Positions 4,646 through 26,040 of a stretch of 27,753 nt of DNA are shown piece after piece (the stretch's first letter is position 1; each line of letters opens with the position of its first letter). Position numbers and translations under genes: made by a program. The DNA lies in IMG/VR virus record IMGVR_UViG_3300015076_000009, positions 1-27,753 of that record; one strand, given 5' to 3'. Under the pieces are notes generated by a model, which was not told where the DNA came from, did not search any database, and saw only the letters and a program-made list of their open reading frames with translations. Source of the stretch: a virus.

Positions 4646-4884
4646 CAGTATTTGTAAATCGCCAGACCGAAGCTGAAAATTACAACGATCACATCGATGA
4701 TGTGAGACCATTTGGTCAGTTTGATGGCAATTCTACGATCATCAGTTGATTCGCCGAACATGTCTTTCAACATCTCCATGTTCGCTTGCACCGTTTTTTC
4801 AGGCGACAAAAGGCTACGAATCAACATGGACAGGATAACCAGTCCAATCAAAGCCATCAGGATAGAGCTAGAATGGGATGTCAT
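4645..4884 (-). CDS. Small membrane protein with two transmembrane segments
   Basis: Not recognised. With the start at 4884 the protein has 79 residues; an in-frame ATG at 4908 would add eight. Neither start has a strong Shine-Dalgarno sequence, and the first codons overlap the preceding gene, so coupling is likely. Two hydrophobic helices are visible, SILMALIGLVILSMLI near the N-terminus and IIDVIVVIFSFGLAIY at the C-terminus, joined by a charged ~40-residue loop. This hairpin topology is seen in holins and superinfection-exclusion proteins, but no lysis genes are nearby, so the role is open. Confidence 0.68.
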   Translation of the reverse strand: MTSHSSSILMALIGLVILSMLIRSLLSPEKTVQANMEMLKDMFGESTDDRRIAIKLTKWSHIIDVIVVIFSFGLAIYKY

Positions 4885-5128
4885 CTTCGGGAATGCGATT
4901 GTACGCATCTTTAGAAGGTTGTTTGATCGGAGTGTAAGAAGTTGACGCAGGACGCGGCTTCGCCGCGAAATTCAGATTGCCACTGCGAACATGATGTTCG
5001 ATGATTCCATCCGTTGCATTGATATAAGACGGGCAACGATAGACGATCACGCGCACAGGTGGGCGCAGACCTACAAGCGTGCACACTTCATGCGGTTCGT
5101 TGAAGTTTTTGCAGTCCAGACAGCTCAC
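4868..5128 (-). CDS. Small Cys4 protein with SSB-like acidic C-terminal tip
   Basis: This 86-residue protein starts with GTG at 5128, overlapping the preceding stop as GTGA, with GGAG upstream. Cysteines at 3, 6, 16 and 32 (CxxC then two single Cys) could hold a zinc ion. The middle is Pro/Ser/Thr-rich and looks disordered. The last six residues are EDDIPF, essentially the acidic tip of bacterial single-stranded DNA-binding protein (DDDIPF), which recruits repair and replication proteins. No OB fold fits in the remaining length, so it is not an ordinary SSB. It may imitate the SSB tail to attract or occupy host SSB partners; that is inference from the tail sequence. Confidence 0.75.
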   Translation of the reverse strand: MSCLDCKNFNEPHEVCTLVGLRPPVRVIVYRCPSYINATDGIIEHHVRSGNLNFAAKPRPASTSYTPIKQPSKDAYNRIPEDDIPF

Positions 5129-5583
5129 GATCCGTTCTCCGAGTAGAAGTTGGGCTTCTTGAGACGTCCGTGAAGACCTTGTTCGAAGATCATATGCACG
5201 CCGTAGTCATGGCACACGAACCAGTTCTTGTCTCCGTGAGTAGTCATCCCCCAGTTTTCCCGCTTAGTATCAGTAAAGAATGTGGGGATTTTGTCCGGGT
5301 ATTCCGACAACCCTGCGGGACGCGTGCGCTCCTGAATCAGGATCTTGCCATCCGGGGAGATACTGTCAATGGCTGCGAACCAACGACTGTGCTTCGTGCT
5401 GCGCACAGCCTGCCAGATATGCCACTCAGCAAGGTTCTGATAATTGGGGTACGGGTCAACTTCCACTTTGACCACATATCCAGGCTTCAACTTGCACTCA
5501 TAAACCTGGCGCGACATTCCGCCGCCCAATTTCTTTCCACACAGGATGTTGAATGCTTCTTGGCCGATTTCTTCAGCGATCAT
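5125..5583 (-). CDS. Minimal protein-kinase-fold protein, 152 aa
   Basis: With the start at 5583, one base after the preceding stop, the chain shows the main kinase landmarks: glycine-rich loop GGGMSRQV (20-27), VVKV with Lys39, a possible helix-C Glu53, hinge-like LIQERTRP (82-89), catalytic-loop-like TDTKREN with Asp105 and Asn110 (the D-x4-N spacing of HRDLKxxN) and DYG at 126-128 in place of DFG. Only 24 residues follow DYG, so most of the kinase C-lobe is absent; kinases are normally 250 residues or more. It could be a reduced kinase, a pseudokinase or an aminoglycoside-phosphotransferase-like relic. It starts right after the PEP-CTERM-like gene and overlaps the next gene by 4 bases. Confidence 0.7.
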   Translation of the reverse strand: MIAEEIGQEAFNILCGKKLGGGMSRQVYECKLKPGYVVKVEVDPYPNYQNLAEWHIWQAVRSTKHSRWFAAIDSISPDGKILIQERTRPAGLSEYPDKIPTFFTDTKRENWGMTTHGDKNWFVCHDYGVHMIFEQGLHGRLKKPNFYSENGS

Positions 5584-5584
5584 T

Positions 5585-6148
5585 TTACTTCGTCCGACGG
5601 GAAAGCCAGCGGTAGTAGCATGCAACAGCAATCCCGAAGCATGCCCACAGGCGCCAGATAGCAGCTTCCGGGACCGGGCTTGTCATCCTGTCCAATGTGA
5701 TTGTTCCGTTGACGTATTCGTTGAACGGCAGAGCGATCAAGAATGTGCCTGCATACATGTTGATATCCGCGTCACCTACGCTGAAAACGACACCTGCATT
5801 GTCGAATGCATCGCTTGTGCTCCATCCGTGCGGCACGTCGGTAGGACCGAAAAAGCGGTTGTCGTAGTCGTAAGCAGGATCCTTGCCAATAGGAATGATG
5901 CCGGAGATCGAAGAACCGTTCAGAACCCCTGAGAACGACAGAATTTGTTGGCCTAGTCCTCGGTCCACATCGGCAGTTGCCGTGGTGAATTGACCGGAAA
6001 GGTTGAACGCCGGATCGCTGTCGTAGACGTTGGAGAGTTCGATATCCCACACGGCTGCGGCGCTTGCAGGGGAAGACCAGCACAGCATGAACAGTGCCAT
6101 GACGGCAAGCATGATTGCGGAAACGAGCAGAGACTTGAATGTGGTCAT
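5585..6148 (-). CDS. Secreted protein with PEP-CTERM-like C-terminus
   Basis: The start at 6148 overlaps the preceding gene as ATGA; the longer upstream start at 6271 would run through that gene and is rejected. The 187-residue protein has a classic signal peptide (basic start, LLVSAIMLAVMALFMLCW core, ASA-AA cleavage site near residue 30). It has a beta-rich secreted body with many Asp, Gly, Ser and Thr. The tail has VPEA at 159-162, a hydrophobic span (WRLWACFGIAVACYY) and a basic end (RWLSRRTK). That order, VPEP-type motif, membrane span, arginine cluster, defines PEP-CTERM proteins, which exosortase sorts to the outer surface in polysaccharide-forming Gram-negatives. A host exosortase would be needed. 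The proline is replaced by alanine, so sorting is not certain. Confidence 0.75.
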   Translation of the reverse strand: MTTFKSLLVSAIMLAVMALFMLCWSSPASAAAVWDIELSNVYDSDPAFNLSGQFTTATADVDRGLGQQILSFSGVLNGSSISGIIPIGKDPAYDYDNRFFGPTDVPHGWSTSDAFDNAGVVFSVGDADINMYAGTFLIALPFNEYVNGTITLDRMTSPVPEAAIWRLWACFGIAVACYYRWLSRRTK

Positions 6149-25953: not shown

Positions 25954-26040
25954 CGCCGTATAGCTCAGACTGGTAGAGTCACCGTTCTGCCCGTGCACGG
26001 GTTCCGGAGGTCGTTGGTTCAAATCCAACTACGGCGACCA
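25954..26040 (+). tRNA. tRNA-like RNA with a palindrome in the anticodon arm
   Basis: Acceptor CGCCGTA/TACGGCG with ACCA, D arm GCTC-AGACTGGTA-GAGT, variable AGGTC and T arm GTTGG-TTCAAAT-CCAAC are normal. The anticodon arm is not: CCG and CGG enclose TTCTG, a perfect 12-bp palindrome CCCGTGCACGGG (25990-26001) and TTC. Removing the 12 bases gives near-normal tRNA length (75 with CCA). The isotype cannot be assigned. Confidence 0.65.

Follow-up and report, generated by a model that had tools for sequence, protein, structure and literature searches.

The stretch of DNA analysed here (the window) is a 27,753-bp IMG/VR virus record that carries, in a tight minus-strand cluster on the ORF map, a gene for a small protein with kinase motifs, referred to as the mini-kinase. 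The features of this cluster are listed below; conservation counts refer to 71 distinct family members and omit rows gapped at the position in question.

5125..5583, minus strand: mini-kinase ORF, 152 aa plus stop, by translation; matches phrog_4301 (E 4e-28)
5503..5526, minus strand: GGGMSRQV, residues 20-27, of the Gly-rich loop LGGGMSRQV, residues 19-27; G22 68/68, R25 68/68
5467..5469, minus strand: K39, the beta3 Lys; 70/70
5425..5427, minus strand: E53, the alphaC Glu, placed with the AlphaFold2 model; 69/70, with one Ser
5272..5328, minus strand: short segment from hinge to catalytic loop, residues 86-104, predicted from DSSP of the model and from motif spacing to replace alphaD and alphaE
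5254..5271, minus strand: catalytic loop D105-T-K-R-E-N110; D and N 71/71, K107 65/71, His in the other 6
5200..5208, minus strand: D126-Y127-G128, equivalent of DFG; D and Y 71/71, G 54/71, A 14/71
5128..5199, minus strand: 24-residue C-terminal tail after DYG, with the family trend R/K...K...W in the alignment
5585..6148, minus strand: upstream ORF, 187 aa, with a signal-peptide-like start and a C-terminus of VPEA, a hydrophobic stretch and RR
4868..5128, minus strand: downstream small ORF, 86 aa, GTG start, matching phrog_23504 (function unknown; E 2.4e-4)

The upstream ORF runs in the same direction as the mini-kinase gene and ends 1 nt before its ATG, while the GTG start of the downstream ORF overlaps the mini-kinase TGA by 4 nt (GTGA). 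The initial annotation had described the neighbour as a secreted surface-type protein, and the signal-peptide-like start of the adjoining 5585-6148 product agrees with this. Comparison of this product with PHROG, Pfam, NCBIfam and phage sequences gave no match, and its C-terminus (VPEA, hydrophobic stretch, arginines) resembles a PEP-CTERM sorting signal; a phage-borne exosortase substrate, if it is one, would be unusual. Elsewhere the window encodes a primase closest to those of Nipunavirus phages (PaMx25, 50% identity), a Dda-like helicase, ThyX, a DNA ligase, and Sak4-like and SSB-like proteins. ARAGORN also reported a tRNA-like gene with a 2-base anticodon at 25954-26040 (+), directly 3' of a tRNA-Thr gene.

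The mini-kinase had initially been annotated as bearing the invariant kinase residues in order with only 24 residues beyond them. Translation of 5125-5583 (minus strand) bears this out, with the Gly-rich loop, K39, E53, D105-TKRE-N110 and D126-Y-G each where they had been placed and 24 residues after DYG. The His and Arg of the HRD motif are replaced (F-T-D), and tail position 146, a Trp in 64 of the 71 members, is Phe. A chance occurrence of the motifs was rejected, as shuffling the sequence 200,000 times produced the ordered set just twice, and a single one of the 243 six-frame segments of at least 60 aa in the window contains it, the mini-kinase itself.

The window protein belongs to phrog_4301, a group labelled “unknown function” (99.5 bits over residues 7-143). 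Searches by tblastn with the window protein, the protein of Sphingomonas phage Birtae and that of a Vibrio jumbo phage (E limits 1, 0.1 and 0.1) each matched the same number of phage records, 90 of 50,697 with RefSeq duplicates included. Separate alignment-based scans gave 51 IMG/VR loci and 12 bacterial loci; single-protein short-word scans with the window protein, a narrow search, gave no matches in viral or genome contigs. Yuavirus, Nipunavirus, Nanhaivirus, Erythrobacter phage vB_EliS-L02 and Vibrio jumbo phages are among the carriers. At the bacterial loci 80 of 127 neighbour ORFs were scanned, and these include terminase, portal, head and tail families (tallies pooled across loci), which suggests that at least some of the bacterial copies are prophages. 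In a tree of the 71 members the rows nearest to the window by path are two further loci (L072 and L017) and the Janthinobacterium, Pelomonas and Roseateles loci, but support for this placement is not strong. The mini-kinase is thus, as judged by these matches, a member of a conserved family and not a one-off.

The 71 members include several near-duplicates and contig-edge fragments; outside them stand four plasmid proteins, EKU1 (a gene only partly open in frame) and near-identical phage records. G112 and V123 are, like the catalytic Asp, Asn and DYG Asp and Tyr, kept in 71/71. Among 32 pairs with at least 60% identity, which are non-independent and several of which have dS above 1, dN/dS was 0.025-0.295 in all 24 computable cases, with dS saturated in the other eight; these ratios are a clear indication of purifying selection on the family. 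Among the plasmid relatives, that of Methylobacterium pAMS5a has the complete catalytic set in the form D-x-H-x-x-N. Three from Rhizobium read D-x-K-P-x-A and are without the Mg-binding N110, so that some descendants may have lost catalysis. One of these N110-less genes adjoins a DUF4238 gene and a reverse-transcriptase gene (L084:1525-4420) and another, on a different Rhizobium plasmid (L083), lies near a zeta-toxin gene and an AbiGi-type gene, company that could be called defence-like.

Structure prediction and a Foldseek comparison had been suggested as a check on the kinase assignment, and both upheld it. AlphaFold2, run with 45 aligned sequences, returned a model with pLDDT 94.5 and pTM 0.87, whereas the protein of locus L061 alone, modelled without an alignment, gave an uninformative pLDDT of 35. 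By DSSP the model has a helix at 2-14, beta1-beta3, alphaC at 49-60, beta4, beta5 ending at residue 85, beta7 at 111-116, beta8 at 119-124 and a short helix at 132-135. Against the PDB, 49 of the 50 Foldseek matches listed are titled kinase or aminoglycoside phosphotransferase and one is a pre-40S particle; the best listed is Wee1 (E 5.9e-4, prob 1.00), the only match with an E value under 0.001, and TM-scores lie near 0.5. All 50 VIA-align matches listed have the kinase fold, led by CDKL1 (Z 9.7, rmsd 3.8, 127 aligned) and including PRPK (Z 9.0), RIO2 (Z 8.7) and HopBF1 (Z 8.5). In the viral structure library the best matches come from the same family, the PaMx11 protein (E 7e-14) and that of Sphingobium phage Lacusarx; the top row has 205 aa, the length of the YuA-type protein, and lower matches are other phage and giant-virus proteins, many of them annotated as kinases. 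A search of PDB sequences with the family profile, which does not depend on the model, gave only kinases among its 14 matches at E<=10, all weak (E 0.3-1.4). No match over the curated cut-off was found for the window protein with Pkinase PF00069 or APH PF01636.

The model and the alignment agree in the absence of the helical C-lobe (alphaD-alphaI). No helix longer than four residues follows residue 68 in the model, and the family's proteins, whether from unrelated phages or from bacterial loci, stop at a median of 21 residues after DYG, in keeping with the initial claim that there is almost no C-lobe. The distance from K39 to D105 is 65 residues in the family (63-81, n=70) vs 96.5 (91-107) in 20 bacterial PF00069 kinases, those of 30 fetched from bacterial carrier genomes that had the motif pattern, while the distance from D to DFG is unchanged, at 17 vs 18. 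This spacing indicates that the stretch from beta5 to the catalytic loop has lost some 30 residues, and with them alphaD and alphaE. The reduction goes further than was initially noted, as alphaD and alphaE are lost besides everything after the DFG region. All complete members seen share this short form; L039:4983-5582 has 74 residues after DYA, with a tail unlike those of its close relatives, which stop soon after, and this tail is a fusion, a frameshift or a misassembly. The earlier description of the protein as among the smallest kinase-fold enzymes is fair as far as this fold goes. E. coli diacylglycerol kinase, whose fold differs from that of protein kinases, keeps it from being the smallest kinase of any fold. 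PMC4703834 gives 121 residues per subunit for that enzyme.

The surroundings of the gene vary. Scans of neighbours in phage, IMG/VR and bacterial loci revealed no conserved partner gene common to the loci. TerL was detected in the available flank at 10 of 65 loci, and at five it is on the same strand no more than 300 bp away; the model used was built from eight of these TerLs and misses other TerL types; we estimate, without computing it, that this proximity is little above chance for flanks of such size. The mini-kinase gene adjoins TerL in Pan1, Dinoroseobacter phage R26L and a few contigs, follows a T5 A1-type ‘DNA transfer protein’ gene in L062, and elsewhere has primase, helicase, exonuclease or DenV genes beside it. 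In L054, L058 and L060 its neighbours are portal on one side and a gene for a MuF/ADP-ribosyltransferase-like head protein on the other. The latter genes, 3' of portal at L054:5500-7185, L058:5466-7193 and L060:5516-7237, encode MuF-type head-morphogenesis proteins matching ‘Bxa ADP-ribosyl transferase’ phrog_16625. Across loci, with 20 of the 26 large neighbours scanned, the families seen were portal, MuF/ADP-ribosyltransferase head proteins, primase, helicase, methyltransferase and T5 A1-type proteins, and 58 hand-picked neighbours belong to mixed families. The DNA hydroxymethyluracil-kinase domain PF18723 was present in 3 of 17 carrier records searched, and a general link to DNA hypermodification was rejected on that count. 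Since no neighbour is common to the loci, the mini-kinase gene appears to be a mobile accessory one that has a function of its own and does not belong to a fixed complex.

We judge it slightly on the probable side that the mini-kinase is a phage-made enzyme of the kinase fold, minimal by nature and with its catalytic apparatus complete. In the predicted architecture an N-lobe of five beta strands and alphaC is joined through the hinge to the catalytic loop and the DYG-bearing beta7-beta8 hairpin. The K39-E53 pair and the Gly-rich loop would hold ATP, N110 and D126 would bind Mg2+, D105 would position the acceptor hydroxyl and K107, or its His replacement, would steady the gamma-phosphate. As there is no C-lobe on which a peptide could bind, the enzyme probably has as its acceptor a folded protein of host or phage origin; this would dock at the open cleft, perhaps by way of the C-terminal R/K..K..W tail. 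Such an acceptor may itself complete the active site, the kinase core being completed in trans by target, partner or second subunit. During infection the gene would then serve as an accessory takeover function, a role that its scattered genomic positions fit.

The initial annotation had left open whether the protein is active or a decoy. We favour a working ATP/Mg phosphotransferase, a probable reading given the conserved catalytic set, the Asp above all, and the purifying selection. The catalytic Asp is not known to have a role outside transfer, and its presence in every one of the 71 members is our best argument for catalysis. Catalysis may be weak or partner-dependent, since the mini-kinase lacks the helices by which known kinases anchor the catalytic loop and has other residues in place of the HRD His and Arg; the absent anchoring helices are the best argument for such an enzyme. 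A more specific proposal, which we regard as tentative and on the doubtful side, is a natural half-kinase that consists of the N-lobe and catalytic hairpin without alphaD-alphaI and catalyses phosphotransfer once the missing half is provided by its target, by a partner or by a second copy.

Several other explanations were weighed. The protein might be a phosphotransferase that acts on small molecules or nucleic acids, similar to aminoglycoside or choline kinases, and not a protein kinase; APH(2'') appears at ranks 4, 7 and 23 among the Foldseek matches listed and APH(2'')-IVa at Z 8.1 with VIA, and D-x-H-x-x-N, which replaces D-x-K-x-x-N in the six His-bearing members, is a form known from APH-type enzymes. 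However, PF01636 gave no match, the acceptor-binding helical lobe is absent, and no metabolic neighbour is constant, with even PF18723 confined to those few carrier records, so we consider this unlikely. A pseudokinase or nucleotide-sensing decoy, which would bind ATP or a host protein and transfer nothing, could account for the missing alphaE, alphaF and activation segment, the replaced HRD residues and the Rhizobium plasmid relatives without the Mg-binding Asn. Pseudokinases typically lose at least one catalytic residue, whereas no such loss occurs in the 71-member alignment of the phage and prophage family, where catalytic Asp, Asn and DFG-Asp are universal, and this reading appears quite improbable. 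Degenerate kinase folds can also transfer AMP or other groups, as in SelO or SidJ. This precedent and the atypical surroundings of the HRD motif would allow a different chemistry here, but the active sites of SelO and SidJ are altered relative to the standard kinase order that the Gly-rich loop, K-E pair, D/N and DFG-Asp of the mini-kinase retain, and we hold such an activity to be highly improbable. Finally, a truncated or frameshifted ordinary kinase, suggested by short length alone and named at the outset as what might hide a full C-lobe, is refuted to the point of being negligible by the short form of all complete members save L039, by purifying selection and by the downstream ORF, which is no C-lobe and belongs to the separate family phrog_23504.

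 Family members are mostly annotated as hypothetical, with kinase names on a few records, among the 60 phage matches listed ‘cyclin-dependent kinase-like 5’ (H2), ‘protein kinase’ (H19) and ‘serine/threonine-protein kinase’ (H24), and on one further phage match (H144). The kinase idea is thus not new for this family. Our searches of PMC gave no publication on the phrog_4301 mini-kinase family and, as far as these searches show, its conserved C-lobe-less architecture is undescribed. The mini-kinase is real, conserved and unusual, and its activity is probable from what the sequences retain. Kinase catalysis is taught as two-lobed, with the C-lobe holding the substrate and anchoring the catalytic loop. 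A family that keeps all catalytic residues without alphaD-alphaI is a natural test of this view and may reveal the minimum of the fold that catalysis requires. The half-kinase proposal, if true, would make it the smallest kinase-fold phosphotransferase described and the helical C-lobe dispensable for chemistry. The small size of the protein puts complete mutagenesis and NMR within reach, and the protein may be an overlooked takeover tool in phages of Pseudomonas, Burkholderiales, alphaproteobacteria and Vibrio, including the well-studied YuA, M6, LKO4 and PaMx25.

The closest known proteins are Yuavirus gp39, Nipunavirus PaMx25_65 and Pan1_02, all in phrog_4301, which are homologous throughout (~30-45% identity), similar in length and equipped with the same catalytic set; YuA gp39 has an N-terminal extension, unlike the window protein. 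YrbL (PF10707) has the N-lobe motif G-x-G-x-x-R-x-x-Y...K in common with the family. PF10707 matches 13 of 45 members at E<=10, the window protein not among them, with a best value of 3.6e-5 and 24.0 bits that is below the 31.5-bit cut-off, and in four members listed singly the matches cover the N-lobe only. The E. coli PF10707 member is annotated ‘protein kinase-like domain-containing protein’. It retains a long hinge-to-loop segment, with K and the catalytic position 100 residues apart, in contrast to the mini-kinase spacing, and it reads SLKPQN and DNIG where the mini-kinase has D...N and the DFG equivalent; alignment of the family with this single sequence by hhalign gave a probability of 10.7%, in the N-lobe only. 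RIO2 and Bud32/PRPK, which are compact atypical kinases and rank high among the structural matches, possess a C-lobe and have longer chains, of 225-271 residues. The effector kinases NleH/OspG and HopBF1, which are structural matches of the model, also have a reduced kinase fold, with solved chains of 159-175 residues, whereas the window protein is shorter and also without alphaD and alphaE. NleH1 shows no significant sequence relation to the family (E 1.3, profile vs PDB sequences), and the mini-kinase, unlike these effectors, has no link to secretion into eukaryotes. HopBF1 is termed minimal and atypical in PMC9950578. PMC8196651 describes a mainly helical kinase domain for NleH/OspG, and reports OspG/NleH to be without the terminal helices and activation loop and to be stimulated by E2~Ub. 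By analogy, OspG/NleH offer a precedent for the activation of a reduced kinase by a partner.
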